Shown here one piece after another: positions 22,888-63,806 of a stretch of 64,000 nucleotides of DNA; the stretch's first letter is position 1; each line of letters starts with the position of its first letter. The DNA is from a virus. Under the pieces are notes generated by a model. It made no database searches, was not told the DNA's origin, and saw nothing but the letters and a program-made list of their open reading frames with translations. The DNA is taken from IMG/VR virus record IMGVR_UViG_3300030002_000003, positions 1-64,000 of that record; one strand, given 5' to 3'. Made by a program: the position numbers and the translations under genes.

Positions 22888-25800
22888 ATGAATCCAAGAA
22901 CAGGTAAAAAAGTAGCAAATACTTTTGGAAAGGGGATGAATCTTGATCTAGATAAATCCTTATTGAATAAAGATCAGTACAGATATGCGGAGAATATAAG
23001 ATGCGTTGCTAATAACAATGCGACTTCTGGAGCAATAACAAATATACAAAGCTCAAAATTAGTCGACCTTTCGTTCGGTGCGAATGAAAAGATAATAGGT
23101 ACTACAGCAATTAGAAATATTGGTGTAGTTTTTACGTTTGATACAGTCACTAATAAGAATAGACTATACAGAATAGATTTCTCAAATCCTCTAATCCCAG
23201 TAAAGAAAAATGTTTTGCCTGGCAATCCAGGGAGAGTAGTAGGACTTGACGTTGGAGTAGATATGGGAATAAACGAATCTAGCGTACTAAGTATAGTTGG
23301 TAGGTTTGAGGATTTCGATAATATTAAAGTATATTGGGCTGATGGATTATCATACATGAGATCTGTTAATATAGCTGCATCTAACGACATTAAGAATGAA
23401 ATCATAGATAATGTATCAACGCTAGATATACTTCCCTCTACGGCCTTTAAAAGGCCATCTATCTATGGTATTGACTCTGGTTTGTTGAACTCTGGTCTGA
23501 TACAGTATTACTATCAGTTGTTTAACTCATCTGGTAGCGAAACTGCGGTTAGCCAGCCAAGCCCAATGGTCCACTTAACTGAGTCTGTAATCAAACAGAA
23601 GAGTATAGATTATCTTGGAACTGGGCTTGGAGATAAATATGGTAAATCTGCGAACAAATCAGTAAAAGTAGAAATAGGAATACCAGAAGGGAATAAGCTT
23701 TCTAAAATTAGATTAATATCAGTATACTATTATAATTATGCTGAAGTTCCGGTTATACACATAGTTAAAGAGCTAGATCTAGTTGAATCTAATTCAGGAT
23801 CCTCTATAATAATAGAGGATAGTGGATCTGGTGCTATAGGAGAATTGTCAGTACAGGAGTTCGCTTCTATAGGGGGCTATCTATTTAAACCTAATTATCT
23901 AGAATCTAAAGACAATATTCTGTTCGCAGGAAACGTTAAAGAAGATACTTGGGATATGCCTAATCCTGGAGAACCTGGATACTATGATACTAGAGCATAT
24001 CAGTTTGATATAAACGGATATTGCCATATAAAAAACGGTTCTGTAACAAATACTTATTCATCAGAAGTTATAGGTACAGTTCCGACTACGCATGACTCAA
24101 TACACGATGAAATATATACTGTAGATAAATATTCGTCACTTACTGATATATACGACGCTAACGGTAATCTAGGTGGATCTGGAGTTAACGTAAGCTATTT
24201 GTTTACTAATACATACTTTGTAGAATCATATGGAGATTTTTGGAGCAACACTCCTGGAATTACTAAGCCAGCTGGAGATGCAGCTAGATTCATAGACAAT
24301 AGGACTGCTAGGATTGGAGACGTAAAAAGAGAAATAGACTCAGTACGCATATTTAAGAGCGATGGTACATATTGTAATTCAGATATAACTAATTTTGGTC
24401 TACCAGTTCATGAAGGTCCACTAAACTATGCTAATCCATATCTATCTAATAATTTTAAATCTTATCAAAGGGATGAGATTTACAGGTTCGCTGCTGTATT
24501 TTACGATTCTAAAGGAAGAAGTACTACTGCAAAATGGATAGCAGATATTAGATTTCCGGCTGGATATGTAAGCAACTCTGAATGGAATTCAAGTATATTT
24601 GAGATGCCAGAAGAAACTGATAACCTTGGATATTCCGACATCACAATGTTAAAGAATCAAGAGCTATTAGTAAAGCCGCTTGGATTATCATTTAACTTTA
24701 ATAATATACCTTCTAATATTAGCAGGATAGAGATAGTCAGAGCTAAGAGAGATTTAATCAATAAGACTATATTGTCTCAAGGGGTGGTCCAAAAAGTTGG
24801 AACGTACCATGACAGTATAGGCGATAGTGATCTTACTCCTCCGATAGAAGGAAGCATAATGCCACACCCATTTATTGCGATGGGATATAACTACTCGTCA
24901 CTTGGCCCAGTATACGAAATACTTGAGACTGGATATAACTCAAACGACATAGCGGTTCCATGGACTTCAGACAATAAATGTTGCTTCTTTGGCTTTCCTA
25001 ATGCAATAGTATGGGAAAGATCTGGTGCCGATACTACTCAATTTGTAGGATACGATGACTTTGGTGGAGGAAGAAATGTAAGATATGACTTCACTAAGCA
25101 TGCATTATCTCCATATAGAGCAAGCAATACTGACTTCTTGTTTATAAACCCGGAAACTTCTTTTTACGGAGTAGATTTTACTGAACAGATTAGAGGAATA
25201 ACTACTAATCCTACATTTGAAACTGTAGACATAATATTCCCTAAATCAACTCCACCTACATTATTAACTGCTAGGGGAGATACTGGAAGAAGTTCATATT
25301 ACGGAAGTCCGCTACACGAAAGACTATCGTTCTATGGTGGCGGTAAATGGAACCCATCTTCTTTATATTTTGGTGCTGATATAAATACAAAGAACAGGAA
25401 TAACACAACATTCTTTTCTTTGTTTGGTTTATTTGGAATGGATATGAAGAATATAAATCCAAGCTTTGATCACAATTTAGCATTAGATTTATGTAAAGTA
25501 ATACCTGCTCCAGAGAAACTTGATATATATCCACCTACGCTAAATGATGGAATAAATAACATTACGTACCCAAGGGGATATGTTGCGACTGGCGGAGCAT
25601 ACGTAACATCAACTGGAGATCAACAAGCTTCGTATAGAAGTGGATCTGGAAGAGTATTTAGCGATGCGGCTGCATTTGATAACGGAAGACCAATGTGTGA
25701 TATACCACCAGCCTACTATACTGCTAGCATTGAAGGTGGTTTGATTGGTGGAACGTTCAAATACTTCAGAAGGCTATTCGATGTTAAGAATGACTCAAAG

Positions 25801-32589: not shown

Positions 32590-35500
32590 ATGAAGAGACC
32601 AAAAATAGATAAAAGAATTATAACTCCAGGTGCAATGGCAGACTATGCTAAGAGGGAAGCCTCTTGGTCTGGTATGCTTATGAGCGCAGGTGATTTGAGC
32701 GTCGGCAATTACAAAAAGGTTGCTCCAGAGGCTCCTGAGGTAGATACCGAGGCTCAAGACAAAGAGATTGCTAGAAAAGTTGATGTAGCTGTTGCTGAAA
32801 AACTAAAAGCAGCCGAGGCTGGGAAAGTAGATACGAATCTTATTCCTAAAGAGGATAAAGCTACTGAAGCTCCAACTAATCCTTTAGAACAGAAGCAATG
32901 GGAAGTTAATCAGAATAACTGGTTTGAAGCATACAAAAATAAGTTAGGCCCAAAATCATATCCATTGACTACTGGTCCATCTGAGACTCCTTTGTTTGAC
33001 TCAATGAAGGAAGGGGCTAAAAATACCATAAACTTTGTAAATACTGGCCTTAATCAGATATTTGACTTTCCTGCAACCTTGTCTGATATTGGCTCACATG
33101 CAGTTAAATTCGCCGCTAAATCTGCAAATGAGATAGATCAATTTGGGAAGGCTAATTATTTCTCTGACTCATGGAAAGCTACTGCAAATGGATTTGATGA
33201 TTCACATATAAGTAAAGCCGCTGGAGAGCAAGTTGAAGTATTAGGTCAGGCTAGAGACGGAATAGAAACTATGTCTGATGTAATTAAGACTGACCCTACT
33301 ATGCAAGAAGCCCTTCTAGCTTATAATGAGTGGAGTAAAAGACCAGATAAGATGGATGATGGAAATGGAATGCCAGTTTGGGATCAAGTTCAATCAGATC
33401 TTAGGCCTGCATTCGATAAACATTATAGTACTATCAAGAAATATATAGAGGCTAGAGATAAGTTTAGTCCTAATATGTTTAACACCGGTGAATCATTTGA
33501 AAAGACTGCTCATAAGGCTGGCTTATTAGATGGTATTGGTAACTTTGTAGATCAATTAGGAAATTCTATTACTGGCGTAGATGAAAATAATTCATTAGCA
33601 GGGAATGTTAGTAGATCTGGAAGTGGCGCATCTAATGCAGAAGCGTATCCAAAAGGATTCACTCCATATATGCAACCTGATGGCAAACCCGTTCCTAACT
33701 ACGCGCTTCCATCAACAGAAGAGCTTTTTGGTAAAGGTCCTGGATATGACATGCGTGCTACAAATGGGTATCTGAATGCTATGAATAAAATAAATCTTCA
33801 GGATATGAAAACTGAAGAAGACGTTGCATGGCACATGAGACAAAAGAAAGCTCGTGGAGACGCTTCTAATGCATTCCTTGTTAAGCAAAATCAGAACGAT
33901 AATATACTGTTTTCTATGCCTTCTCAGGTAGGTATATCTTCAGGCGATGTAACTACTCAATTTGCTTCTACAGGCCTGTCAATGGCTTTAGGTGCAGCCT
34001 CAGGGGTATCTAAGAACCCATTTATAAAGGGTGCTATTACCGCTGTTAATTTTGGTTCCAATTTAGCCTTAAATGCATACCAACGTAAGCATGAAAACTG
34101 GATGGAGCTTGATGATAATCATAGAACTAAGGTTAATGAGTATCTAGCTAAGAATGGCGGTGGCGACAGCAATATGCTGTATAACCAATCGGACGATAAG
34201 ATATTAAAACCATTATTAACTGATGGTGCTGGTGGGGACGAGGTAAATAAAGCTAGACAGGAGTTAAAAGAAAACGGAGCATTATCTACAGAGACTAGAG
34301 CTATTATAGAAAGAGGTATATTATCTAGACGTATCAAGACATCTGATAAAGTAACTAATGATGCATTAGCTAATGGTGACGTGAAATTGAAAGAATACAT
34401 GAAGCAGAATGATGCTTTCATGTGGACTGATGTTGCAGAGTCTATGATTATGTCTATCCCATTTGGAAGTGGAGCTACTAAGGCAATAGAGCTCGCTGCT
34501 AAACCAGAAGCATCTGCGGCTGCTAAATTTGCTGCAAAAACTATAGAAATGGCTGAAGGCAAGTACACTAAAACTATTGGAAAGATAATGCAACATGGAG
34601 CTATGATAGTTCCAAAGATAGCTGCAGCTCATACTGTAGATGCCTTAGGTGAAGCTTTTGAAGAATCAGGTCAATACGTAAATGGTCAGAACTATATAAA
34701 GAATCATATGAATGAATATGATTCATATATTGGGTCATTGATAGAAGGTACTAATTCTGGTATATCTGGTATCAAAATGATACTTGGAGAGAATGTAGAC
34801 AAAAATTACTATGATAAAGATCAACTAGAGATGAATGCTAAGGCTGGATTCTATATGGGACTTATTATGCCTCTTCCGTTTACTGCATTTCATACCGCTA
34901 CGGAAATAAGGGAAAATTCTAGAGAGAATAGAGCAAAGTCTTATATAGATGGAGGTATTGGGGCTCAAATAGACTCTGAATCAAGAATTACTAAAGCTAA
35001 TTTCTATGTAAACGCAGCTACAAAGGGGATGGGCGATGCTGTTGAAAATCATATAGAGAATCTTTCAGCTAATAACAAAGACCCATATAAAAAGAGACAA
35101 TTCCAAGACGAAGCTAAATTCGCTAAAGAGGTTCTTTCTGTTGCAGATAGCCCACAGGTAACTAAGTTTGCTAAAAATAATGGAAAATATGGATCAGAAG
35201 ATCATAAATTACTCACCTCTTTAATAGTTGACCATAGTGCGGCATATGAGGATGCTGTAAAAAAGGTTGATGAATCTAATTCTATACTTGATAAATCTAG
35301 TAAGACTGACTTTGAATCTGACTTTACATTCCAATCTGCATTTAATCAAATAAATAGTAGGAGAGAGGATGGGAGTGAGGCTATTATACCAAAAAATGTT
35401 CAACAGGAGTTGCATTCTCTAATGGCGGAAAAGCAGGCAACGGAGGTTTTAATTAACTTTAAAGAACTTAGTGACGCTCATGACATAGATAGAAAAGATA

Positions 35501-38500
35501 AAACTGTAAACTCTCCACAGAATAAGCAATTTAAGTCTGATTTAAAATCAAGACTTATGTCTATAAATAATAGAATAAATTCATTTGCTGATGTGATGAG
35601 TATACCTAAGGAAGAGTTCAATGATCTTCCAATGGCTAAGTCATCTAATGAGAGTAAAACTGCTCTATCAACAGGAATAGCTGCTCAGGAAGGATCTAGA
35701 TACGATTCTGACGTTGTTAATGCTTTATCTGGCTATGAATCTAAAAGAAATTCAAACGGAGAGCAGTCATTCAAAAAGATGAGTGATGCTAAACATACTG
35801 CTACAGTTTTAGATTATTTAGATAAATATAGAGCTGCTAGACAGTCAGAGGACGAGACTGAAGACAATTTGCAGTCTCGGGAGGCTGAGAAGGCCTCTAA
35901 GGACGATTCTAAGACAGTTTTAGAGGAAAATGGTATTCCGCATCCAGGAACTCATGAAGAACCCGCTACGGAGCTAGAAATGGCACCAGCAGAGGAGCCG
36001 TTAACTACGGTAACTTCATCGGTTGAGCCAACAGAAGAGACTAAGCCTGTATCTACTGAGGCACCGCAGGTTCAAGAAGAACCAATTAAAGAGGTATTAC
36101 CAGAAGAAGATGTAGAGACTAGTTCAAAGGAAACTCCAGAATCATCTGATGTAACTCCAGAGCCTGCTCCAGAAGTACAAGAAGAACCACTAGCTCCGAC
36201 CGAACCAAAAGGAGAACAGTCTGTAGAGGCTGAAGAAAAAGCTACTAAAGAAACAATATCTACTGAAAAGCAAGCAGGTAGAAATACCTTTGCGTATGCC
36301 AGTAGAATGTTTTATGGCGTTACGGCTAATGCAGTTGCACCTAAAAGTATAAATGGACAAAGAGTCAAATCACACGAAGAATTAGGTAAATTACTCGCTA
36401 CTAATGATTTCTTGGTTGACACCGAGATTGAATTTACTATGCAGGATAAGAATCCTAATATAGGTGGGTTTATACCCGGTCATAGAACTACTTATGATCA
36501 AGCGGCTATTATTGCTGTCATAAATAAGAAGAGCGGCCCAATGAAGGGTTACTATGTAGCTATGGTTACAGACCCGTCTGCTAATACTGCTACAGTAAGG
36601 AGTATGCAAGAAATTATTGCATTGTCTAACTTTAGACGAGGAATAATAGAATCTATAGCATCTAATGAGACGCTTCCTTCTGATAAAAAAGTAAAGGTTG
36701 TAGCTTCTGTAGTAAAGGTAAATGATGGAGAAATCAAAACTCTTCTAGTAGATGGTCAGTCCGTTATACACGAACAGCGTAATATAGCTGACGTTCCTGG
36801 ATTTGGGCTACCAATGAAAGACGGTAAGGTGGTATGGAGTGAAGTGTCTAGCGAAACCATTGGATTGCACCTTGGAAAAGGAGATCGTGGAGATAGAGCC
36901 ATTATGGATGCAGATCAACATGTCGTTTCATATGTTAAAGATGAGAGTAACTCAGGTAATGCGTTCATAAGCGTAACTACTCCAGTAAGAAAAGATAAGA
37001 GAGAAATTAAGGTTAATCAAAAACAAATTAAACGTGAGACTCAAGAGGTAATTGATTTAATATATGACTTAGTTATAAATAAAGCTGCATCTGATGCAGA
37101 ACGTATATATACCAGTCACAAAGGAAAGCAATTAGATACTGGTGTATCTGCATTCTCATTGTTAGATAAATTAATTAACTTCGGCGAAAAGACTATAGTT
37201 CAAGAATCTAGAACTGAAGAGGAGCGTAAATATTTACTTCCAAAACAATTCTATATTAGCTCTGACTCGGCTGCTAGGTTTATTGTATATGGAGAAGACT
37301 CTATGACTTTAGATCAAGCTAAAACTGAATCTGGAGCTAAGATTATAAAAGACTTCATAGTTGGTGGAATGCACTGGAACTTAGAGAAGAATCACCTATC
37401 TATAGAGGGTACCCCAGTAAGAGTTAATCAACTATTTCCTCAATTAGACTATCTGTTTAATGAAACTAATCTTGGAATAGATAAAGTTGAGTTTGCAAAA
37501 GGATTTACAATAACTAAAGAAGACGTCAATAGTTTAACATGGGCTGCATGGATGCTAAAGAACGGTAAGATTACAACTGATGCTATTGATGGTATTTTTG
37601 GCAATCCGTATCTTCACGTGGAGTCATATGATGTAGTTCCAAAGAATAGTATTAGTACTCCAGTGTCGTCAGATGGTGGTTTAAGGGGCCTAGGAGCCTC
37701 TGAGAGCGTCGTAAATAACTCAATTAATGATTCTGTTCAACCAGATAAATCGTTCGTTACAGAGCCTACAGTAGAGCGTGAGATATCACCAGATTCTTAT
37801 GACGAGCTTCCTTCGTTTGACGATCTGATGAATTTTGATCTAGAGGGAGCTCCAAAAGAAGTTAATGGTCCAGTAACCAAAGAGATGAACTCTGATATAG
37901 AGTCCGCTTGGTTGATGGACAAGTTAGGATTAAACGAGGACGAAATCGATATTAGAGACGAAATTATCAAATTAGCTCATGATAGACGCGCTATGGGGCT
38001 TATGGCAGAGTCATCTATAGTATTATGGAATAAGGGCGAAGCAGGTACTGCGTATCACGAAGCATTCCACAGGGTATCGTTATTGCTATTAAATCAATCT
38101 GAAAGAAACAGAATATACAGTTTGGCCAGAAACTCAAACTCTGAGTTAACTAACGCTACTGAAAAACAAATAGAAGAGCACTTAGCTGAATTATTTAGAG
38201 AGCAGATGCTATCTCCTACTCACGTATCTGACGTACTAGGAATTAGAAAGTTCTTTAGAAAAATCGCTAATACAACAAGAAGGTTCTTGGGTATGACTCC
38301 TAGAACCATAAACAGATTATTTAAAGATATCCAACTTGGCGCTTACTCTGACGTAAAAGTAGATAGATCTAGCTTAAATAGATTCAAAGAGGCTTATACT
38401 GAAGGTGCTGAATATGGAATCAAAGAACTTAAGCTTAGAAATATAGGCACTTACTCTGAATTGTTCGCAATTAGAGATTCTTTAGTATATGCAATGTTCC

Positions 38501-41500
38501 AATTGAATAACGTTGCTGCTATCGGTGATATAAGCGACCTAGATATGGGTACACTTAAGTCCTGGATAAAGAAAGTTTCGGCTGATAAATCAAACGAATC
38601 GAGGTCTGCGTTATTTACTGAAATAGATGAAAGATTTGAAGACATATTTAAGCCAAAGATAAATCAATTCTTGGCCGCAATGGACATCAAAGAAGTAGAT
38701 GAAGACAACAGAACAGAAAGCGATTCTAATCAAATAGCTGATGAGGCCGCTGATCACTCTAAAGCCTCTTATGAAATATCTAAGGCTGATAATACTAGGG
38801 CGTCTGTTAAGATGTTTATAGCTACTATGCCTAACTCTGAGATGATAGATGGCAAACCTACTGTATCGTTAGAACCTTTAACTGGAATACCTACATTCGT
38901 ACCATTTGTTCCTTCATGGAATAAGATGATTAGCGAATTAAGCGACATGAGTACAGTTCCTATGATGATAGAGAAGATAGACCGCTTATCAAAAGTAGAT
39001 CCTTTCTATAAACTATTACTAGGCAGACTTAATAAGGTAGATGCTAAGACCGGTAAGATGATGTTAACCGATCAATTTATTACTCAGTTCTGGGGATCGT
39101 TGTTCAGTATGCGTCACCAATTTATAAACATTGGATATAGGGAAATAGCTGAGTCTAAGGATGATATAAGAAATCTATTCGTAATTAGAGATAGTGATGT
39201 TGAAAGAGCTACTAGAGAATTACCTACTCTGTGGGGACAATCTTTTGCTGAGAATCCATCGTTGTTTCCAACCGATGAAAATGGAGATAAGTCGTTTAAT
39301 AAAGAGTACGCTCAATCTATAAAAGATAGATACTTAACTGGACTATTGTCTCAGACTAAACCGTCTAAAGATAAAACTAAACAGATTGATCTTAACGTAG
39401 AGGAAAATAGAAATGCCGTACTCGATGAAATAGTAGACCTATATAATATGGTAGGTATTGCTATTGATAGAGATACATTAAACTACATGCTTCAAGGTAA
39501 AAAAGGAACTGCATCAGAAATGGTTGCAGAACTTACAAAATACCTAACAGATACTAAATCTGGCAGTATGAGCATCTTGTTCAATAATGTAATGTCGTCA
39601 TTAATAAAAAATAATGGAGAACTACTTAAATCTGCCAAGAATAGAAAGTCCGAAATACGTAGAGAGGTTAAAGAGATATTCCTGAATGAGAAGTTTGCAG
39701 AAAGACTTGCAGTAGCTCAATCTAAATCTCACAAATCATATGTAGAGGCAACTGTTATTGGTGCTGATGGAGCTAAGCTTTATCAAGTATCTCAAAACAA
39801 TATTATATCTGATACAGTTAGAGAGTTAAATACTAATCCGGAATTAGTTAATAATTTAATTAATACTACATATGTAGGTGGATTTGTTAACGCTAATGGA
39901 GTTAGTACTGGATCTAGAGTCTTAAGACAATTAAAGGATGGTACCTCCAAAGGAATAGATTTAAAGACATTTGTTAAACTTACTGAAGAGGGAGCTAGAG
40001 ACAAAGGACGCGACTACTTATCTATATCTGATGCTGAGGATTATGTTATGAAAATGTCTGCTTTAGCAAACGATTACATGACTATTCCTACTATGGCGGA
40101 TAAGAAGACGTATATGTTCGTTTCTGGAGTAGAGTTAATTCACCAGCCCATAGTATACTCTAGATTTATCAAGCAAGGAGCTGATGGTAAAAACGTTGCT
40201 GATATTACTATAGATTTCCCTTCTGAAGCTAAAAATCAGTTATCTCAATATATGAGAGCTGAGTTTATGTCGATCAAGAATGCATGGCAAGAATTTAAAA
40301 CTGGCCAGGATCTTATAAAGGTATACCACTATAAATCAAATAGAGACGGCTCTATATCTCATGGAAATGGACTTAGGTTTAGATACTTTGGAAATATATC
40401 TGCTGCTGTATTACTTGGAGCCGATGTTATAAATAAAGATATAAGTTTAAACTCATACTTAGATATAGCTGAAGATACTGGAAATAAGCAAGCGTTTGAC
40501 GATGTACTTGACAATATAGAAAGATTGATGCTGAATGATTACGAAGTTATGAACTCTGTAATAAATGCATCATTAATGAGTGCACTAAAGAAGGAGGTTG
40601 CATATGCTGGATCTATAGGGGTTATTGAATACAATGGTACTATTGGATCTATAAAAAATAAGCTACTTGATAGAGGCTCCATATCTAGAAAATCCGCAGA
40701 AATGGATTCATTGCTTAGTAGCTATGACCCAGTATCTGGAAACAAGATCTCTAACTATGGAGAACAAGCTGCTATCTTAGACGCTTTGTCGGAAAACTTA
40801 GTAAATGAAATTATATCTGTAATCGAATTTGAGAAGCTATTTTCTAAAGATCCTGCATTCTACAAAGATACCGATGCTAAGATTAAGCGTCTATCATCTA
40901 TGCTATCTACTGGTACTAACCTTAGAACTGAATGGCCAATTGGTCATAACCTTCAAGGCGTAACTACATTTACTTCTGCTGAGGCAGCTGATAATATAGT
41001 AGGCAGTAGGGAATACGACAAGGTATTGAATAGATTCAAGGCTAATGAGATAAATGAACTTATAGTTGCTCATGGAAAATTATATGTATACGATCTACAT
41101 GACTTAATTGAAAATCATTCATTACCTGCTGAATCTAGAGACCAGGCTAAAGAAGATAGGCTTCAAATGCTTCAAAAGTCATTTAAAGAGGAATTTATTG
41201 CTGGATCTAAGATAGCTGAAAAGAATTCTGCTGGATATGGATTGAATGGAATAGATGAAACTGATGCTACTGTATATATAACTCCTAAGATGTGGAGAAA
41301 TATGCAAGAAATGCTTGGTGATTGGAACCCTGATATGCAAGAGGCTTTTGATTTACTAGAGTCTAAAGAGCAATCATGGGTTAATAATGATGAACAGTAT
41401 AACAAAGTTGCTAAATTAGCTATGGCTCCGATGAAGATGATCTACTTTGGTAGTAAGGTTGATTCAGAGAGAGGTTTGGATATTCCAAAGCTTGACAAGA

Positions 41501-44500
41501 TGGCAATGTTCCCATTGTTTAAATTCATGGCTAATGGAGATTTATCTCATCTATATGATACTATGAATAGCAAAACGAAGCCAATCGACATGGTTGCTTT
41601 CCAAACTGCTGTTAAAGTAGGTAATATAGAAGCGTCTAAAATATATACCGATGCATCTAATACGGAGATGGCCGATTTGTCAAATATGGTTACTGATACC
41701 CAAGAGTATAAATACTTAAGAAAACAGTTAGTTACTGACGCTCACCATCAATCAGAGATGTCTTTGGGTACTCAACCTGCAAAGGCTGCTATGTCTAATA
41801 TTATTGGAGATAGAGTTTATCAGAATATAATACTCGACGGGAAGAAAGGTGCTACTGGCAATAGAATCCTTGAGGCGTGGAGAGCTACAAACGTTGCTCT
41901 ATCTGATAGAGGTGTTGTAGACATGGAAAAAGAATTAGGGTTCGTAAAGAATGCTGATACTGGAGTATATGAGTTTAACGAACAGAAGCTTATAGATTTA
42001 TTCTCTGCCGATGCTGAGAGATCTAAAATGCCTGATGATGTTGTAGCAAAACTTAAATCCAATACCAAAGAAAATCCTGTATCGTTACAAGCGTTGCAAG
42101 ACTGGAAATGGATTCAAAGTAGAGTCACTTCTATGATTGGAAAGAATGTTATTGATATAAAGACTCCTGGTGGAATGTTTATTCAAATGACTGCATTCGG
42201 GCTTAGAGACGACGGAACTTCTAAGGCAAAAGGTATTGGTCAATCAAACTATAAAGGAAGCTACAAGATTAATAATGGAAATAGATTAAGATTCTTGAAT
42301 GATGATGGATCTATGGATGCAGTGGTTTCTATAAACTTATTCAAAGATGTTATTCCCGCTGATATCAAAAAACTTAGCTTTACGAAGCAAGTTGATTGGT
42401 TAATATCTAACGGAATAATTGGAAATGATTCAGCTCCATCTTCTATTGGGTATCGTGTACCAACTCAAGGACTATCATCAATGTCAGCACTTAAGATCGT
42501 AGATGTCTTACCTGCAAATATAGAAGATACTATAATTCTTCCTACTGAGTTCACCAAACTTACCGGCTCTGACTTTGATATTGATAAGCTTTATATAGCT
42601 AGATATAATTTCAAAACTGATTCAGAAGGCGCTATTAGAAAAGTAGAGTTCGACGATTCTAGAATTGGGAAGAATGGAGAAGATGCTTATCACTCAAATA
42701 GTACTACTGCTTTACAGAATAGACTATTAGATCTATTTATGGGCATATTAACAGATCCATCTAATGCTCATGAAACAAGGATGCCATTGGATACTGTTAC
42801 TGACGAGTTAAAAGGCAAAGGTGGTATATTAGAAGATATAGACAAGTTATCAAATGCATCTAGATCTACATATCCATTTGAACATGTAACTCCTGCTTAT
42901 CAATCTAGAAAGAAAGCTGAGTATGCTGGAGGTAAAGGTGGTATTGGGCCAATGGCATTAGCAAATGCTCACCATGTTCTTACCCAGGTAGCTAAATTAG
43001 AGTTCTTCGATAGAGGCCCTATTAAGAAATTCGGGATGAAGGATCTAGGACTTGTGTACGGTAAAGATGGTAAACGTATTCTTGACTGGCTATCTGCCAT
43101 GATCAATGCATTCGTAGATATTGCTAAAGATCCATATATCATACGTTTGAATATGAATCCATTTACTTACAGTACTGCTGAGTTATTGCTTAGAACTGGA
43201 CTAGGAAAAGATACTTTCTATTACTTGTCTCAACCAATCCTTAAGGACGTCGCTGCTGCAGTATTATTGACAAAAGGTAGATATGGTTCAATTAAAACTT
43301 TAAGTGCCTATGAGAGGGAGCAAATAGCCATTAATGAGGTTAAGCAAACCTATATCAACGCTGCTGTTGATGCTGCTAGAAAGGAAGGTGGTCCTGTTAA
43401 TGAAAAGATAGCTAAATTGAATGCAATTGAAACTAATTTAGATGATTTTGGTAGAAAGATTCTGGCTAATGAGCATATATTTGGTCATGACTTTTTAGTT
43501 TCCCAGATATCTGGTGATAGAAATTCATTCGACTGGAACTATAATCAGATAATGATGATGGAAACATTCGAGGAATTAGCTCCATTCTCTAAAGCATTGG
43601 CCGAGCTAGTTAAGTACTCTCAAGTAGATGGTAAGAAGTGGGGCAACACCCTTATTTCAATGTCTATGTATAATGACAACGTTAATGAGCTTATTGCTAA
43701 GGGAAAATCTGGGGTGTTTAGGAATCTACCTGAATTCTATTCTAAAACGTTCCTTGGAGCTAAATTGAAGAATGCTATTACAATGTCAAATTCTATTGGC
43801 AATTCAATGTTCTTTAGAACTACTCCAATAATGTATAACTTCCTTAAAAAGGCTGGAGCATTAACAGGATCTAGAAAACTACTTAGCTCTGAGACTGTAG
43901 AGTCTATTGCAGATGCTACTGATTCACTTATTAAGTCAGAGTTCTTTATCAATAGGGCTAATAAACAGGGAGTTGAAATAAAAGACTTATTCTATGGAGC
44001 AGATTCAATGGCTAGACGCCTATATAAAATAAAGGATAAAATAGCCAAGGCTGACAAAAATTCATTGTATTTAAGCTTAAAGAATAACGTATTTATCAAT
44101 CACCTTAAACCAGATATAGCTACAGTTAGGTATATTGAAACTAAGGATGAAGCTGGAAATGTTATCTCAAATAGAGACGAGTACAATCAAAGACCTGATC
44201 ATATTCTTACAGACAGTGCCAACAATTCTGACCCAAATTACGTTACTATGTTAAAAGAGTATTGGGCAGAGCTATTGGACAGCCCTATAGAGGACGTTAA
44301 TAAATTTGCTAATGACTTTATATTATATCAATTCTTCTCTAATGGAGAGAATGGTGCAATAAACCAAGTAAAATTAGGAGAGGACGTTAGAACTGATATA
44401 GGATTAGAGAAATTTATTAAAGATAGAATGAAAAATATTGCTAATGGTGAATTACCATTTGAATATAATGAAGCTATCAGAAGTATATTTGTTAATAGAT

Positions 44501-46158
44501 GGTATGATGACGACCTAGTTCCTTATGTTAAGCTAACTGAGAACCAAGGGTTAGATATGCAGGCTACTCAAATAACTGGAACTAGGGTAAATAAAATATA
44601 TAATGCACCTCAAGTTCCTTCACCAGCAATCACTTCCAACGGTAAGGCTAGACCACTCTTCTTTGTAGATGATCTTGCTAGACCAGTAGGTATAATGAGA
44701 GGTGGTGGTAATATGTTTAGTCCATTTGTTAAAGTATCTTACGATAATGGTACTTCTGTACCTGATGTAACCCTATTTGAATTAGTAGGCGTAGTTAGAA
44801 AAGGAGATGAAGGATTTGGGACTACTAAGCCAGTATATGCAGCTATAAATAAATCCAGTGAGAAAGTCGCTGGTAAATCAGTAGTTGAATTTGGCCTAGA
44901 GAAATCAATAATACCTGCCAATAAGGTGATGGCTTACGGTTCTATAAATAAGTCCGTGTTCGAAAGTAAAGATACTTTACTTCCTCATATACCAAATTTG
45001 TTTAATAGATATAATGAAGCGTATCAAAATGCAAGATTATCTATAGAGCAAATGGATAGAACTTATAATTTATTTAGCACATTTCGGCCAATTACATCAT
45101 TTGAATCATTTGAGAAACGTGATGCAGCGGCTAAAGAAGTTACCGATACTGTAGGTGATTTGTACGATAAAGTAATAAACTATGCTAACATAGCTAAGTC
45201 TACTGGTGATTTTGATGCCTACCAAATGTTATCTGATATACAATCTGATGATAATGGTTATTCTGAATCACAAATAGCAGCAGCTCTGTATTTATATGCA
45301 GACACTCTAAAGTCGCTATTTAATGAGAATGCATCAGAAACAGAGTTTAAGGCCGTAGATAGCATATATGATAAATTAGGCGCTAAGACCGAAAGCAAAA
45401 ATGTAAGAATAGTTAAATGGGCTGATCTAAAAGATGCTACAGAACCGTATATACGAGTTGGAGGACATGTAGTAAATGTAATATCAACAAGAATAAAAAA
45501 CTCTGATGAACATTTTGGAAATCCATTTAGTCCTGACGCTAGAATACTTGCTAATAATAAAGATTTAATAAAAGCCGACAGTACTAAAGACGCGGTTGAG
45601 AAGTATATTGACTGGATTATTTACGGAGGCGGTGCGTTTCTAGAAGAAGGCACTGGGCATCCAACAGAGCTTAGTGAAAGGGTTGATGAACTTAAATCAA
45701 GAAGAGGCTGGATTTTGTCTAAGCTGAAGACAGGCGAATTTAAAGATAAACCAATCTTATATTACACAGAACTTGGAGAGCCATCTCATGCAACTGCATT
45801 AGATTACTTAATCAATAGATATTCATTTAAAGATGATTTAATCAACTCTGAAGAATCTAATGATCAAATCACTAATTCCAATGAGATAGTGTCTAAAAAC
45901 GCACTTAAAGCTCGTGTAGAGGAATACACCAACAAACATATGGATGAGAATAAGGCGTATTCTGAATATTTTAACGACTACAAGGAAATTCCAATATCTG
46001 AAGGATGGACTGAAGATAAAATAGCATTATCTGAAAATTCAATAGAAGCTATAAATGGCGGACTTGAATCTATAGGATTACCTAGAATATCTCAAGAGGA
46101 TTATAACAATATGTCACAAGAAGAATTAGATAAACTAAAAGCCTGTTATGGCATATAA
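32590..46158 (+). CDS. Giant virion protein with zincin, crAss-type RNA polymerase and DUF4326-like parts
   Basis: A 4522-residue protein. In order: a helical N-terminal part with hydrophobic segments near 457-480 and 617-640; a Pro/Glu/Thr-rich linker (about 1116-1224); a zincin-like metallopeptidase motif AYHEAFHRV with His1823, Glu1824 and His1827 and a probable third ligand in EEHLAELFRE (about 1862-1870); a long RNA polymerase region (about 2000-4000) with IGYRVPTQGLSSM and the catalytic loop DFDID (Asp3328, 3330, 3332) in GSDFDIDKLYIA; and a C-terminal DUF4326-like domain (about 4270-4412). crAss-like phage phi14:2 carries the related virion RNA polymerase, which enters the cell to transcribe early genes; this one is about twice as long as that protein. 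The zincin may process it. It is followed after 5 bases by the second giant. Confidence 0.85.
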   Translation: MKRPKIDKRIITPGAMADYAKREASWSGMLMSAGDLSVGNYKKVAPEAPEVDTEAQDKEIARKVDVAVAEKLKAAEAGKVDTNLIPKEDKATEAPTNPLEQKQWEVNQNNWFEAYKNKLGPKSYPLTTGPSETPLFDSMKEGAKNTINFVNTGLNQIFDFPATLSDIGSHAVKFAAKSANEIDQFGKANYFSDSWKATANGFDDSHISKAAGEQVEVLGQARDGIETMSDVIKTDPTMQEALLAYNEWSKRPDKMDDGNGMPVWDQVQSDLRPAFDKHYSTIKKYIEARDKFSPNMFNTGESFEKTAHKAGLLDGIGNFVDQLGNSITGVDENNSLAGNVSRSGSGASNAEAYPKGFTPYMQPDGKPVPNYALPSTEELFGKGPGYDMRATNGYLNAMNKINLQDMKTEEDVAWHMRQKKARGDASNAFLVKQNQNDNILFSMPSQVGISSGDVTTQFASTGLSMALGAASGVSKNPFIKGAITAVNFGSNLALNAYQRKHENWMELDDNHRTKVNEYLAKNGGGDSNMLYNQSDDKILKPLLTDGAGGDEVNKARQELKENGALSTETRAIIERGILSRRIKTSDKVTNDALANGDVKLKEYMKQNDAFMWTDVAESMIMSIPFGSGATKAIELAAKPEASAAAKFAAKTIEMAEGKYTKTIGKIMQHGAMIVPKIAAAHTVDALGEAFEESGQYVNGQNYIKNHMNEYDSYIGSLIEGTNSGISGIKMILGENVDKNYYDKDQLEMNAKAGFYMGLIMPLPFTAFHTATEIRENSRENRAKSYIDGGIGAQIDSESRITKANFYVNAATKGMGDAVENHIENLSANNKDPYKKRQFQDEAKFAKEVLSVADSPQVTKFAKNNGKYGSEDHKLLTSLIVDHSAAYEDAVKKVDESNSILDKSSKTDFESDFTFQSAFNQINSRREDGSEAIIPKNVQQELHSLMAEKQATEVLINFKELSDAHDIDRKDKTVNSPQNKQFKSDLKSRLMSINNRINSFADVMSIPKEEFNDLPMAKSSNESKTALSTGIAAQEGSRYDSDVVNALSGYESKRNSNGEQSFKKMSDAKHTATVLDYLDKYRAARQSEDETEDNLQSREAEKASKDDSKTVLEENGIPHPGTHEEPATELEMAPAEEPLTTVTSSVEPTEETKPVSTEAPQVQEEPIKEVLPEEDVETSSKETPESSDVTPEPAPEVQEEPLAPTEPKGEQSVEAEEKATKETISTEKQAGRNTFAYASRMFYGVTANAVAPKSINGQRVKSHEELGKLLATNDFLVDTEIEFTMQDKNPNIGGFIPGHRTTYDQAAIIAVINKKSGPMKGYYVAMVTDPSANTATVRSMQEIIALSNFRRGIIESIASNETLPSDKKVKVVASVVKVNDGEIKTLLVDGQSVIHEQRNIADVPGFGLPMKDGKVVWSEVSSETIGLHLGKGDRGDRAIMDADQHVVSYVKDESNSGNAFISVTTPVRKDKREIKVNQKQIKRETQEVIDLIYDLVINKAASDAERIYTSHKGKQLDTGVSAFSLLDKLINFGEKTIVQESRTEEERKYLLPKQFYISSDSAARFIVYGEDSMTLDQAKTESGAKIIKDFIVGGMHWNLEKNHLSIEGTPVRVNQLFPQLDYLFNETNLGIDKVEFAKGFTITKEDVNSLTWAAWMLKNGKITTDAIDGIFGNPYLHVESYDVVPKNSISTPVSSDGGLRGLGASESVVNNSINDSVQPDKSFVTEPTVEREISPDSYDELPSFDDLMNFDLEGAPKEVNGPVTKEMNSDIESAWLMDKLGLNEDEIDIRDEIIKLAHDRRAMGLMAESSIVLWNKGEAGTAYHEAFHRVSLLLLNQSERNRIYSLARNSNSELTNATEKQIEEHLAELFREQMLSPTHVSDVLGIRKFFRKIANTTRRFLGMTPRTINRLFKDIQLGAYSDVKVDRSSLNRFKEAYTEGAEYGIKELKLRNIGTYSELFAIRDSLVYAMFQLNNVAAIGDISDLDMGTLKSWIKKVSADKSNESRSALFTEIDERFEDIFKPKINQFLAAMDIKEVDEDNRTESDSNQIADEAADHSKASYEISKADNTRASVKMFIATMPNSEMIDGKPTVSLEPLTGIPTFVPFVPSWNKMISELSDMSTVPMMIEKIDRLSKVDPFYKLLLGRLNKVDAKTGKMMLTDQFITQFWGSLFSMRHQFINIGYREIAESKDDIRNLFVIRDSDVERATRELPTLWGQSFAENPSLFPTDENGDKSFNKEYAQSIKDRYLTGLLSQTKPSKDKTKQIDLNVEENRNAVLDEIVDLYNMVGIAIDRDTLNYMLQGKKGTASEMVAELTKYLTDTKSGSMSILFNNVMSSLIKNNGELLKSAKNRKSEIRREVKEIFLNEKFAERLAVAQSKSHKSYVEATVIGADGAKLYQVSQNNIISDTVRELNTNPELVNNLINTTYVGGFVNANGVSTGSRVLRQLKDGTSKGIDLKTFVKLTEEGARDKGRDYLSISDAEDYVMKMSALANDYMTIPTMADKKTYMFVSGVELIHQPIVYSRFIKQGADGKNVADITIDFPSEAKNQLSQYMRAEFMSIKNAWQEFKTGQDLIKVYHYKSNRDGSISHGNGLRFRYFGNISAAVLLGADVINKDISLNSYLDIAEDTGNKQAFDDVLDNIERLMLNDYEVMNSVINASLMSALKKEVAYAGSIGVIEYNGTIGSIKNKLLDRGSISRKSAEMDSLLSSYDPVSGNKISNYGEQAAILDALSENLVNEIISVIEFEKLFSKDPAFYKDTDAKIKRLSSMLSTGTNLRTEWPIGHNLQGVTTFTSAEAADNIVGSREYDKVLNRFKANEINELIVAHGKLYVYDLHDLIENHSLPAESRDQAKEDRLQMLQKSFKEEFIAGSKIAEKNSAGYGLNGIDETDATVYITPKMWRNMQEMLGDWNPDMQEAFDLLESKEQSWVNNDEQYNKVAKLAMAPMKMIYFGSKVDSERGLDIPKLDKMAMFPLFKFMANGDLSHLYDTMNSKTKPIDMVAFQTAVKVGNIEASKIYTDASNTEMADLSNMVTDTQEYKYLRKQLVTDAHHQSEMSLGTQPAKAAMSNIIGDRVYQNIILDGKKGATGNRILEAWRATNVALSDRGVVDMEKELGFVKNADTGVYEFNEQKLIDLFSADAERSKMPDDVVAKLKSNTKENPVSLQALQDWKWIQSRVTSMIGKNVIDIKTPGGMFIQMTAFGLRDDGTSKAKGIGQSNYKGSYKINNGNRLRFLNDDGSMDAVVSINLFKDVIPADIKKLSFTKQVDWLISNGIIGNDSAPSSIGYRVPTQGLSSMSALKIVDVLPANIEDTIILPTEFTKLTGSDFDIDKLYIARYNFKTDSEGAIRKVEFDDSRIGKNGEDAYHSNSTTALQNRLLDLFMGILTDPSNAHETRMPLDTVTDELKGKGGILEDIDKLSNASRSTYPFEHVTPAYQSRKKAEYAGGKGGIGPMALANAHHVLTQVAKLEFFDRGPIKKFGMKDLGLVYGKDGKRILDWLSAMINAFVDIAKDPYIIRLNMNPFTYSTAELLLRTGLGKDTFYYLSQPILKDVAAAVLLTKGRYGSIKTLSAYEREQIAINEVKQTYINAAVDAARKEGGPVNEKIAKLNAIETNLDDFGRKILANEHIFGHDFLVSQISGDRNSFDWNYNQIMMMETFEELAPFSKALAELVKYSQVDGKKWGNTLISMSMYNDNVNELIAKGKSGVFRNLPEFYSKTFLGAKLKNAITMSNSIGNSMFFRTTPIMYNFLKKAGALTGSRKLLSSETVESIADATDSLIKSEFFINRANKQGVEIKDLFYGADSMARRLYKIKDKIAKADKNSLYLSLKNNVFINHLKPDIATVRYIETKDEAGNVISNRDEYNQRPDHILTDSANNSDPNYVTMLKEYWAELLDSPIEDVNKFANDFILYQFFSNGENGAINQVKLGEDVRTDIGLEKFIKDRMKNIANGELPFEYNEAIRSIFVNRWYDDDLVPYVKLTENQGLDMQATQITGTRVNKIYNAPQVPSPAITSNGKARPLFFVDDLARPVGIMRGGGNMFSPFVKVSYDNGTSVPDVTLFELVGVVRKGDEGFGTTKPVYAAINKSSEKVAGKSVVEFGLEKSIIPANKVMAYGSINKSVFESKDTLLPHIPNLFNRYNEAYQNARLSIEQMDRTYNLFSTFRPITSFESFEKRDAAAKEVTDTVGDLYDKVINYANIAKSTGDFDAYQMLSDIQSDDNGYSESQIAAALYLYADTLKSLFNENASETEFKAVDSIYDKLGAKTESKNVRIVKWADLKDATEPYIRVGGHVVNVISTRIKNSDEHFGNPFSPDARILANNKDLIKADSTKDAVEKYIDWIIYGGGAFLEEGTGHPTELSERVDELKSRRGWILSKLKTGEFKDKPILYYTELGEPSHATALDYLINRYSFKDDLINSEESNDQITNSNEIVSKNALKARVEEYTNKHMDENKAYSEYFNDYKEIPISEGWTEDKIALSENSIEAINGGLESIGLPRISQEDYNNMSQEELDKLKACYGI

Positions 46159-53126: not shown

Positions 53127-54114
53127 AAAGTAATAGCTCTGCGCCATCACCTTCATAATACTCTTTACTGTAATCCCATAAATTATTGCTAAAATGCCAA
53201 TCCATTTGTGTTATTATTTGAGTTAGTTTGTCTATGTTTGTTATAATTGTGTCGTCATCTATTTCAAATACCTTGCATGTTGCTCCATCATTTTGTATTG
53301 CTACAATATATGTTGAGTGTTTATATTCCTCGATATCTAATTTAAGTTCATTTTTAAAATACCAATATATTGCCATCCAGTAATAGGCCATTTGAGTACC
53401 ATAACTATACTCTTTAAAAGAGTCTTTGAATTTACTAACACTTACTGTAGTTTTTAAATCTATTAGTGTTACCTTCTTTGAGTCATGATCAATTATCAAT
53501 CTATCTATTAATGATTTGCATGGTATTATAGAACCCTTTCTGACTTCTATTTCCCAATTTATATGAAATTCGTTATGAGTTATTACTCCTGGCGAATTGT
53601 CATTTTTGAAAAGTAATTCATTTGCTTTCTTGTGCAATTGAAGTTTCTCTTTTGTTAGTTTTAAGGCCGATAATTTAGCCCATGATATTGTCTCTTCCTC
53701 TGCGTTGCTTGACTTTAGCCATTTAATATAAGGCTTAAGTTTTAAGGCCATTTCTAGCGCTTTTGCGGCAGTTTCATCTTCGTTCTTACTAGTTGTTACA
53801 TAATTAGCTTTAAGTGCCTCTGTGGCCTTTAAAATGACCGTAGTGGCCTTGCTATTGACATAATCTTCACAGAACTTCTTCTGTTGTGCAGAAGTTGGTA
53901 TTGAGAAGTCTAGTATTTTGTATTTCTTCTTAAATTCAGCATGTTGTAATAGATACATATGAACCATTGTTCCATTCTTCATGGCTACTGATGGCTTGTC
54001 TGGTATCTTTCCGTCCATAATATCTTTTGCAAATCTTGGCGATTCTTCAAACGCTTTGATTAAACTATGATTTACTCTGGATCTGTCTGAATAATACTCT
54101 ATGTCGATTTTCAT
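53113..54114 (-). CDS. PD-(D/E)XK nuclease (exonuclease VIII/Cas4-like)
   Basis: A 333-residue protein of the RecB-like PD-(D/E)XK nuclease group. Seen residues: GTMVH with His52, DRLIID with Asp204 in CKSLIDRLIID, DLKTT with Asp219 and Lys221, and a QMAYYW helix with Gln241; the order H, D, D-x-K, Q fits exonuclease VIII-type enzymes. It may work with the Sak4-like ATPase and ssDNA-binding protein encoded further upstream as a recombination module. The gene lies after the strong terminator on the - strand, so its own start signal is probably in the short leader 54115-54138. It overlaps the unknown gene downstream. Confidence 0.8.
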   Translation of the reverse strand: MKIDIEYYSDRSRVNHSLIKAFEESPRFAKDIMDGKIPDKPSVAMKNGTMVHMYLLQHAEFKKKYKILDFSIPTSAQQKKFCEDYVNSKATTVILKATEALKANYVTTSKNEDETAAKALEMALKLKPYIKWLKSSNAEEETISWAKLSALKLTKEKLQLHKKANELLFKNDNSPGVITHNEFHINWEIEVRKGSIIPCKSLIDRLIIDHDSKKVTLIDLKTTVSVSKFKDSFKEYSYGTQMAYYWMAIYWYFKNELKLDIEEYKHSTYIVAIQNDGATCKVFEIDDDTIITNIDKLTQIITQMDWHFSNNLWDYSKEYYEGDGAELLLYDNT

Positions 54115-59138: not shown

Positions 59139-59210
59139 TCGGCTAAGCGAGATTTGAACTCGCATACTATCTATTTCTAGATCTCCATGTACCAATGTGG
59201 GCATTAGCCT
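59139..59210 (-). tRNA. tRNA-like element with no anticodon loop (degenerate tRNA)
   Basis: Read on the - strand this 72-base element has a T arm with perfect 5-bp stem GCGAG/CTCGC and TTCAAAT loop, an acceptor stem AGGCTAA/TTAGCCG with one A-G mismatch at the first pair, U8, a D arm with GG in the loop, a 5-base variable region and a discriminator A. Where the anticodon arm should be there is ATCTA-GAAA-TAGAT: a 5-bp stem with only four loop bases. So no anticodon exists. Other deviations: C at position 14 and a C-A mismatch in the D stem. CCA is not encoded. It cannot decode; it may be a decaying tRNA gene or a structural mimic. Confidence 0.5.
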
Positions 59211-61542: not shown

Positions 61543-61590
61543 ATATTTTTATGTATATTCTGACGCTACTGTGATTTGTATTTTGATAAG

Positions 61591-61615
61591 ATTTGATAAG
61601 TGGTGATATGATTTG
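61591..61615 (-). promoter_or_regulatory. Repeated early motif, copy B (candidate promoter or operator)
   Basis: On the - strand the site reads CAAATCATATCA, four bases, TTATCAAAT. Copy A at 63774-63798 has the same two halves with the same four-base spacer, 21 of 21 defined positions identical. It lies 48 bases before the ATG of the Sak4-like gene. A further TTATCAAA and ATACAAATCA follow it downstream. Two copies in front of two gene groups are unlikely by chance. It is A/T-rich, so random matches are the main caveat. Confidence 0.6.
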
Positions 61616-61656
61616 TTAATTATTCACGGCTCTGTCATTTGTATTTCATCCGAAGA

Positions 61657-62196
61657 TTAGTACAAGTTTTTGATTGTGATCACCAGCGTTTTGATTGTTT
61701 CCAATTGAGCTGATGTGTAAACATTACTGTTCGCTTTGGTGCGAGGGATAATGTTCAAACCAATTTTGAAGAAGTTATCGAAAACTTCTACCTTTTGGCC
61801 TCCTGTGTAGAATGATGAACCGGTTTCACGAGTTACATATTTTGGTGCAGGTTTGCGAGCTGCTGCGAATGCGGCAAGTTCTGATTCGATTTTATTCCAA
61901 TCTTTTAACAGATTGTATACTGGATTGTAACCTTTGCCACATGCGTAGTTAGGATCTTTTACCCAGTTAATATCGTGGTTTTTCGCGGTTCCGAAAGTCA
62001 ACAATTCTGTTGGTCCGGCATATTCAATTCCTCGTAGCTCACGACCCGATTTCAATGTGAAAGGGGCATCCATACCGGCAATGGTTAACCATGGGTATTT
62101 TGTGGTGATGTTTTTTACAAACTGTGATTTGTAATAACCGTTTTTGTCTTGAGCGATCGTTGGCAATTGTACTGCGAAAGTTGATTTATTTGTCAT
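61657..62196 (-). CDS. Unknown protein with unusual codon use
   Basis: A 179-residue protein starting MTNKSTFAVQLPTIAQDKNG, with a C-terminal SSFYTGGQKVEVFDNFF segment and basic middle (AAFAAARKPAPKYV). No recognised motif. Its codon use, with more C-ending codons and CGT arginine, differs from neighbours and resembles that of the capsid gene, suggesting strong expression or different origin. It lies between helicase and Sak4-like genes. A DNA-binding or abundant replication factor is conceivable; a transferred gene is another. Confidence 0.6.
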   Translation of the reverse strand: MTNKSTFAVQLPTIAQDKNGYYKSQFVKNITTKYPWLTIAGMDAPFTLKSGRELRGIEYAGPTELLTFGTAKNHDINWVKDPNYACGKGYNPVYNLLKDWNKIESELAAFAAARKPAPKYVTRETGSSFYTGGQKVEVFDNFFKIGLNIIPRTKANSNVYTSAQLETIKTLVITIKNLY

Positions 62197-62207
62197 CCTG
62201 GTAATTT

Positions 62208-63209
62208 TTAAATTTTAATTTCTAATTGTGTCTCTGGCGCTTTTTGTTCTTCTTCTTCAGATTCTTTTAAGTTATTATATTTTAAGTCGTTTATGAACTT
62301 AAGTATTTTAACTTCCCCCTCTCTATTCTTTATTATGTGTAGGTATATGCAGTCTCTTACAGGGAGGTTTTGAAATCCATAAGATAGGATTCCTAGTATT
62401 TCGGGGCGGTGTATTACTATTACGTAATCTGAACCTTGAAATACTGCATCACTTGACGATAAGTCTGAGCGTTGTGGGTAATGCAATGAACTATTGTTTA
62501 TCCTCTCTGGACTTTCAATGTTTCTGTTCATTTGCGATATCTGAATAATGGAGGTTTTGCCAATTTTCTTAGCCTCCATAAGTGTTTTCTCTAAATCTAC
62601 TATTATTTCTCTTTCTCCACCAGTACCACTACCTTTAATTAGTAATGTATGGTCTATTATAACAACTAGCCATTTTCCTTTGGCTAGCGTCTCCTGAAAG
62701 AAACTAATAGTATTTGCAATCTCTTGTACATTCCCTGGTGTGTCTACATAGTAAATCGGATAGTTTACTATCTCCTTTGCTTCTGATTCTACACTGGCAA
62801 TGTCCGCTTCTGATATAGGGCCTGATTCGGCCGCACTATATAATTCAGTAGTGGTTTTTTTGAGTTTGTAGGATAATTTTCTACCAACTTGCTTACTCGC
62901 TAACATCTCAAATGAAAACGATAATACGATTGTTGATTCATCCTGATTTAGATCTATTAGATCAGTTTCTAACGAATTCACAAATGAACTTTTACCACTG
63001 CCAGAAATTCCGGCAATTGTATATATTGCATTTGGCTCTATACCCCCCATTGTTAGTCGGTTTAGTTTAGGCCATCTCGTTACTAACGATTTTGCTTTAT
63101 TTGTTCTTCTGTCTTTGATATATCTAACAATTTCTCCTGTTGCTGATGATATATGCCTGTAAGTTAATATCTTTTTATTCGACTTTAGCTCCATACATTT
63201 CATCTGCAT
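62208..63209 (-). CDS. DnaB-type replicative helicase
   Basis: A 333-residue protein with a RecA-fold core and no long N-terminal domain. Walker A GISGSGKS (residues 67-74), Walker B LVVIIDHT, and the DnaB motif 3 to 4 region QMNRNIESPERINNSS and SDAVFQGSDYVIVIHRPE are visible. DnaB helicases unwind DNA 5' to 3' at the fork as a ring. The start is uncertain: ATGs also occur at residues 3 and 6, and the gene overlaps the preceding one by up to 35 bases, consistent with a loader-helicase pair. It works with the primase encoded further left. Confidence 0.85.
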   Translation of the reverse strand: MQMKCMELKSNKKILTYRHISSATGEIVRYIKDRRTNKAKSLVTRWPKLNRLTMGGIEPNAIYTIAGISGSGKSSFVNSLETDLIDLNQDESTIVLSFSFEMLASKQVGRKLSYKLKKTTTELYSAAESGPISEADIASVESEAKEIVNYPIYYVDTPGNVQEIANTISFFQETLAKGKWLVVIIDHTLLIKGSGTGGEREIIVDLEKTLMEAKKIGKTSIIQISQMNRNIESPERINNSSLHYPQRSDLSSSDAVFQGSDYVIVIHRPEILGILSYGFQNLPVRDCIYLHIIKNREGEVKILKFINDLKYNNLKESEEEEQKAPETQLEIKI

Positions 63210-63741
63210 TTCTAATCACACTTACATCGTTCATGGCATCAGCATAGAGTAACCACTCTTCTGATAATAACCATTTTGACATCCTCTTCATGTATTGCAA
63301 TGAATTTCCTGCTTTTCGAGTTTTAACCTCGAAATTGAGACACTCAAGCATTGATTCATGCTTACTTAAACTTTTTCCTACTATCTTTTGATAGTATTTT
63401 CTGCACCTTGAAATATCACCACGTAGGTAATCCTTCTGTCCATCTGGTCGAGTCGTTGAAGTTGGATAAGCTTCATAGAATTCATCGAAAAAGTCTCTTT
63501 GCTTATACTTCATTTTGAAGTTTTCAGTAAGATGCAGATTCTTTGTTATTCCATCAGTGTAAGTTGATTCTGTTGTTAGTATATTTTGTTCTTTTAAATT
63601 ATTAATATCTGTATCATCAATGCGGATAACATTAATCAATGATTTGATATCAATTTTGTCTATTAATAATTTAATTAGTACAAACTGATTCATAGTAATT
63701 TTAAGGCGTTTAGCCTCGTCCAAATCTATTTCTATCAGCAT
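63175..63741 (-). CDS. Probable helicase loader or replication initiator
   Basis: A 188-residue protein. The N-terminal part (MLIEIDLDEAKRLKITMNQF) and the following helical segments fit a winged-helix domain; the C-terminal part (residues about 85-160, FFDEFYEAYP to SKWLLSEEWLLY) resembles the DnaD/DnaT-like segments found in phage replication proteins. Direct overlap with the helicase gene supports a loader role. Upstream, 32 bases before the start, lies the other copy of the repeated motif, so this is probably the first gene of the early block. Confidence 0.55.
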   Translation of the reverse strand: MLIEIDLDEAKRLKITMNQFVLIKLLIDKIDIKSLINVIRIDDTDINNLKEQNILTTESTYTDGITKNLHLTENFKMKYKQRDFFDEFYEAYPTSTTRPDGQKDYLRGDISRCRKYYQKIVGKSLSKHESMLECLNFEVKTRKAGNSLQYMKRMSKWLLSEEWLLYADAMNDVSVIRNADEMYGAKVE

Positions 63742-63773: not shown

Positions 63774-63798
63774 ATTTGATAAAATTTGATATGATTTG
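63774..63798 (-). promoter_or_regulatory. Repeated early motif, copy A (candidate promoter or operator)
   Basis: The same CAAATCATATCA, four bases, TTATCAAAT as copy B at 61591-61615, read on the - strand, 32 bases before the ATG of the first early gene. With copy B it defines a shared regulatory signal. A host sigma factor promoter is less likely because no clear Bacteroidota -7/-33 pattern was seen. Confidence 0.6.
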
Positions 63799-63806
63799 TG
63801 TTTGTA

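Follow-up and report, generated by a model that had tools for sequence, protein, structure and literature searches.

The window analysed here is the whole stretch of 64,000 nucleotides that forms positions 1 to 64,000 of a viral record of 93,235 bp. The ends of the record overlap by ~233 bp, and hence the genome is close to complete. Two short repeat arrays lie on the − strand of the window, each before a group of replication genes. These arrays, the genes beside them and the related features discussed below are as follows, with bit scores for the arrays from a three-unit motif model:

63774–63801, − strand: array 1, ACACAAAT-CA-TATCAAAT-TT-TATCAAAT, three direct repeats with a period of 10 bp, 32 bp before the ATG of the helicase-loader/replisome-organizer gene; 24.9 bits
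63744–63765, − strand: short inverted repeat TTTTTAACTTTAAAGTAAAAAA, between array 1 and the ATG
63175–63741, − strand: replisome organizer/helicase-loader homologue, 188 aa, downstream of array 1
62208–63209, − strand: DnaB-type replicative helicase (PF03796, E 3.6e-26), in the same gene group as the loader
61657–62196, − strand: conserved 179-aa protein, last gene before array 2
61581–61618, − strand: array 2, TAACAAAT-CA-TATCACCA-CT-TATCAAAT-CT-TATCAAAA, four direct repeats with a period of 10 bp, before the Sak4-like gene; 22.8 bits
60799–61542, − strand: Sak4-like RecA-fold ATPase, 247 aa, downstream of array 2 (phrog_124, E 6e-24; AAA_24)
53216–53243, − strand: weak third site, in the 3ʹ end of an exonuclease gene; 13.0 bits
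32590–46158, + strand: virion RNA polymerase homologue, 4522 aa (PDB 6VR4, phi14:2 RNA polymerase, E 2.1e-46)

The preliminary description of this DNA placed a helicase loader and a Sak4-like ATPase downstream of its motif and a crAss-type virion RNA polymerase in the window. The polymerase and the ATPase are as it described, and the loader is nearly so: its relatives are annotated “putative replisome organizer” or “segregation and condensation protein B”, and the gene stands directly before that for the DnaB-type helicase. The Sak4-like gene heads a gene group that includes the primase. Family searches with the 179-aa protein gave no matches; by position only, it may be SSB-like.

Structure of the arrays

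The two copies of CAAATCATATCA-N4-TTATCAAAT reported in the preliminary description, with a 4-base spacer and 21 defined positions, are indeed exact, at 63774–63798 and 61591–61615 on the − strand. The pattern matches no further place in the 64-kb window even with up to three mismatches, and the whole record holds just these two copies. Shuffling the window gives an expectation of 0.03, and two matches were seen in none of 100 shuffles. The distances to the gene starts are also right, at 32 bp to the start codon at 63741 and 48 bp to that at 61542. However, the reading of these 25 bp as a two-part motif cuts a longer array at the wrong joints. TATCA words recur every 10 bp at both copies; the repeat unit is an 8-bp word, TATCAAAT, repeated directly three to four times in tandem with a period of 10 bp; and the copy at 61.6 kb runs on beyond 61591–61615 into an extra TATCAAAA unit. 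A two-part box with a 4-bp spacer is thus ruled out, the spacer being the joint between repeat units. With at least three directional repeats at helical spacing, the array has the layout of a direct-repeat operator, and the alternative offered earlier, that the repeated TATCA units are operator half-sites, fits best. On its own, TTATCAAAT occurs 11 times in the window, against 2.7 expected, and nine of these copies lie away from both arrays.

We trained a three-unit model on 36 upstream regions; its core is T-A-T-C-A-N-A-T, in which C and A are kept at 93–97%. The training sites score 22.6 bits on average, a value flattered by the training itself, versus −0.3 in shuffles (sd 4.2; 99th percentile 10.5). 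Antisense regions average −3.5 bits, showing that the unit is directional, and when the spacing was left free at 6–15 bp, 62 of the 72 steps were 10 or 11 bp. We applied the model to a held-out set of nine further genomes, picked for encoding the winged-helix protein described below. In these genomes, which are not all independent, some being kin to training genomes (e.g. G018 to cr55), 16 of the 17 loader and Sak4 upstream regions carry the array, at 16.2–26.4 bits against a shuffled 99th percentile of 12.1; the exception is the loader site of G020, which scores 12.4 bits and is 78 bp away. A simple tandem-lag scan, run with no motif model, proved too stringent, detecting the most regular arrays and missing the rest.

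Occurrence of the array among relatives and genes

For the upstream comparison, 39 relatives of the Sak4-like protein were gathered. In the closest of them, tandem 10-bp repeats precede Sak4 (in L009, for example, three CTATCAAAT(A/T) units, and in L012 four units of the ATTCAAATAA type), and the loader gene has an array of the same kind. From L015 onwards, at ~50% identity, the Sak4 relatives have no array, and the Sak4 start abuts the upstream gene. Arrays are present in named Suoliviridae (Crassvirales) of four subfamilies, Uncouvirinae, Boorivirinae, Loutivirinae and Bearivirinae. Across relatives the array is always in the sense orientation, 18–60 bp before the ATG, with a period of 10–11 bp and a unit that is roughly YATCARAW family-wide. 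The place of array 2 is occupied in all 14 array-bearing complete or near-complete genomes. That of array 1 is occupied in all six non-identical close relatives of the training set, with a degenerate copy in G003 (15.0 bits), and in 10 of 11 further Suoliviridae; the loader site of cr118 is partial and degenerate (5.7 bits). Five Oafivirinae-type genomes are without the array, as is an Azobacteroides phage that has Sak4 and is also missing the winged-helix gene. A sequence-free search for triple repeats found no array in 73 kb of crAss001.

A whole-genome scan and a family-by-family comparison of upstream sequences pick out the loader and Sak4 genes as the two near-universal sites. The third site, before the gene that follows the exonuclease, is found in several genomes, and other sites are scattered. 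In this phage the third site is 59 bp before the gene 53156–52563; its homologues in cr109, cr56, cr52, cr6 and cr4 are stronger (15.7–21.2 bits), although the site sits in coding sequence and protein conservation may contribute to its conservation. Each genome thus has two to three strong conserved sites, all in the replication module, and the separate sites lie 2–10 kb apart. No structural-gene family stood out in the upstream comparison; candidate arrays before structural genes were unconvincing, those of family g9414 being weaker and mostly 65–95 bp away.

The preliminary description proposed a candidate early promoter, and suggested following the motif through the genome and related phages. 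What survives is a conserved cis-element before two gene groups: the array precedes loader and Sak4 across the Suoliviridae, whereas most early-region genes lack it. We reject a general early promoter because two to three strong sites per genome, confined to replication genes, are too few for all early genes, and because some early genes carry a different leader motif. Replication genes belong to the middle class in RNA-seq of crAss001 (PMC8375218), whereas in phi14:2 they are counted as early and as transcribed by the virion RNA polymerase (PMC10136315). Hence, timing alone leaves the polymerase unsettled.

The different leader motif is AATCAAT (ATTAATCAATAA or TTTAAAATCAATYTAT). It lies no more than 35 nt from the ATG in 10 of 83 genes, against 0.76 expected. 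The genes that bear it are all on the − strand, in the early and neighbouring region (G000:64.9–82 kb), and it is enriched in four of five relatives (G005, G007, cr10 and cr55), being absent from cr118. As a lead, it is a better candidate than the array for an early promoter or leader signal; refinement of the motif drifted to AT-rich sequence. A further feature of the leaders is a hairpin directly before the loader ATG, which is strong in cr118 and Loutivirinae and weak in this phage. The fold z of the leader is ~0 here, versus −2.3 to −9.4 in cr118, cr56, cr53, cr52, cr4, cr109 and cr55, and by eye the stems show paired changes (CTCATAT/ATATGAG and CTTATAT/ATATAAG). A general hairpin-ATG leader is ruled out, since such hairpins are not enriched before other genes and are absent from many sites.

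Several other features were observed in the same genome. A tmRNA lies on the − strand at L003:9826–10143 (G000:73.8–74.1 kb), found by ARAGORN and by Rfam as a permuted tmRNA with 55.7 bits; cr10_1 likewise has an annotated tmRNA. An ECF-like sigma factor with sigma-70 regions 2 and 4 is encoded at G000:70696–71295 (− strand), and is present in all 19 Suoliviridae genomes examined. A tRNA-like sequence at 59139–59210 of the window (− strand), in the gap before the gene 59119–58238, scores 27 bits in Rfam against a cut-off of 29 and was missed by ARAGORN. Between divergently oriented gene blocks there is a 647-bp gap, G000:82260–82906, which is a possible early control region or origin.

A winged-helix gene that occurs with the array

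Which protein might bind the array? We compared the presence and absence of all G000 proteins between the 14 genomes with the array and the five without it, and then did the same for 116 families from three seed genomes. The family of the following gene stood out:

G000:85710–86096, outside the window, on the strand of the structural genes: winged-helix protein, 128 aa

This family is present in 13 of the 14 array genomes and in none of the five array-less ones, a split that is mostly one evolutionary event (Oafivirinae versus the rest), to which the Azobacteroides phage adds at most one, giving few independent contrasts. The fourteenth array genome is G007, whose contig begins at the gene just past the place of the winged-helix gene. 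In the array-less genomes the neighbours g85197, g83861 and g86292 are contiguous without the winged-helix gene, and the gene cluster is otherwise conserved. Among the 116 families, this is the only recognisable DNA-binding family with the presence/absence pattern of the array; a second family with the same counts, at 25222–25734 of cr109 (minus strand), is presumed to be an antisense reading frame.

Named relatives of the 128-aa protein are annotated “transcriptional regulator”. Its matches to Crp_2 and MarR_2 are weak, falling below the curated cut-off, and two homologues match RP-C. The AlphaFold model is a winged helix (pLDDT 84) with helix-helix-wing order, and the predicted recognition helix, residues 72–84, is among the most conserved parts of the protein. 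Among solved structures, the fold comes closest to Rep initiator, DnaD and MarR domains, each match being weak (E of at least 0.06), and the sequence profile of the family gave only E values of 0.07 and above against solved structures. Regulators of crAss-like and Cellulophaga phages are also among the fold matches, including a cr85_1 protein annotated “VpsT-like transcriptional regulator”. Gp13 of crAss001, with the same annotation, is a distant homologue (hhalign E 1.8e-6, probability 89.7), and its gene, like that of the winged-helix protein, lies a few genes before the terminase. In contrast, no comparable array was found in the parts of crAss001 examined.

Possible functions of the array

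We propose, with moderate confidence, that the array is a direct-repeat binding site for the 128-aa winged-helix protein, through which the replication genes would be switched. In this model, which draws on comparative sequence evidence and the predicted fold, the three to four copies of TATCAAAT, one per helical turn and 18–60 bp upstream of the start codons of both replication gene groups, would each be bound by one winged-helix monomer, head-to-tail on the same face of the DNA, and the array would serve as a switch setting the timing of the replication (middle) genes. Directional repeats on one face of the helix, close to a start codon, suit head-to-tail binding by a small winged-helix protein. 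Operators of the OmpR/PhoB type are built in this way, their winged-helix monomers sitting on direct repeats with a spacing close to one turn of the helix, although the phage candidate has no receiver domain and the sequence of its repeats is another one. The middle promoters of T4 offer a second parallel, in that a small DNA-binding protein of the phage, here putative, would use a short motif that lies ahead of replication (middle) genes, in this case the loader-DnaB and Sak4 groups. MotA works from one short box, ~30 bp ahead of the start, in combination with AsiA and a host −10 element; the arrays differ in having three to four tandem repeats at helical spacing, with no recognisable −10 element at a fixed distance downstream.

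Indeed, we found no conserved −10 or −7 element between array and ATG. The 30 columns after the array hold no information, and columns anchored on either the array or the ATG show A-richness only, so a downstream element of this kind was discarded. Nor is there a host-type TTG-N17-23-TANNTTTG promoter on the replication strand (−) across 52–66 kb. Because of these two results, repression at a host promoter seems less natural than activation, or than a core promoter for a phage polymerase. If the winged-helix protein acts on transcription, activation of promoters that have no host-type consensus is therefore somewhat likelier than repression.

An alternative explanation is that the array is itself the promoter of the crAss-type virion RNA polymerase, and that the transcripts begin just past it. 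The phage encodes a homologue of this enzyme at 32590–46158, the 18–60 bp before the ATG could accommodate a short leader, and the lack of any other conserved element near the array, or of a host-type site on its strand, fits this explanation as well. Moreover, the phi14:2 enzyme is reported to transcribe modules for regulation and replication in a rifampicin-resistant manner (PMC10136315). We nonetheless regard this explanation as unlikely. With two to three strong conserved sites per genome, most early genes are left without a site, and some have the AATCAAT leader instead. The polymerase homologue is found in all five array-less genomes, and thus in 19 of 19 genomes versus 14 with the array; unlike the polymerase, the winged-helix DNA-binding protein tracks the array. 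Helically spaced direct repeats are typical of small proteins that bind in tandem, and atypical of a promoter for a single-polypeptide polymerase. The promoters of the N4 virion RNA polymerase are hairpins. In phage P23-45, many pre-early starts have an AT-rich motif (PMC10770324). Both phages resemble this one in having a virion RNA polymerase and a short motif, theirs before early genes, but the sites here are very few, and hairpins occur in part of the leaders, rather than at one constant position in all sites. The virion polymerase is a possible partner at the array.

It is similarly improbable that the repeats are replication-origin iterons, at which a winged-helix initiator loads the helicase beside the loader and helicase genes. 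The arrays do flank these genes, the model of the winged-helix protein weakly resembles the N-terminal domains of Rep initiator and DnaD, and the RP-C matches of the two homologues point the same way. Tandem direct repeats, a winged-helix binder (here a candidate) and nearby helicase and loader genes are likewise shared with RepA_N-type plasmid iterons and lambda-O origins. However, a replicon would have one principal cluster, whereas here there are two to three separate arrays 2–10 kb apart, each in the sense orientation and with a defined spacing to a start codon; the arrays are short, at 28–38 bp, their flanks are unconserved in either direction, and origin features were not found. An operator at the RNA level, in which a protein bound to repeats in the 5ʹ leader of a polycistronic mRNA controls translation, would explain why the array is close to the start codon and why Sak4, an internal gene of its cluster, carries one; a leader hairpin follows the array in cr118 and Loutivirinae. 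We consider this quite improbable, given that 62 of the 72 steps between repeats are 10–11 bp, which points towards the DNA helix, that hairpins are neither general (median z −0.28 in 36 leaders) nor enriched before ATGs genome-wide, and that the co-occurring protein is a winged helix. The AT-rich units in helical phase could also be phased A-tracts, forming bent DNA or an UP-like element for the host RNA polymerase with no specific phage protein. This is very improbable: the core C and A are kept at 93–97%, the unit is directional, and the array is absent together with the DNA-binding gene.

Binding of the array by the winged-helix protein could be part of a wider scheme. We tentatively suggest, as a possibility that we hold with some doubt, a two-component circuit of the Suoliviridae in which the winged-helix regulator, bound along phased repeats, would direct transcription of the replication genes, perhaps by recruiting a phage RNA polymerase. 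As judged by sequence comparison, the regulator has distant relatives in other crAss-like phages. The open literature searched, which did not cover the phi14:2 polymerase paper, describes no promoter, operator or regulator binding site in crAss-like phages. If true, this circuit would be the first, previously undescribed, cis/trans regulatory pair for the order Crassvirales; phages of the crAss-like group count among the most common viruses in the human gut. Because the array is conserved and a candidate binder can be named, a single small protein and 60 bp of DNA allow direct tests of the switch from early to middle genes, and of how the virion RNA polymerase and the host polymerase divide their work.
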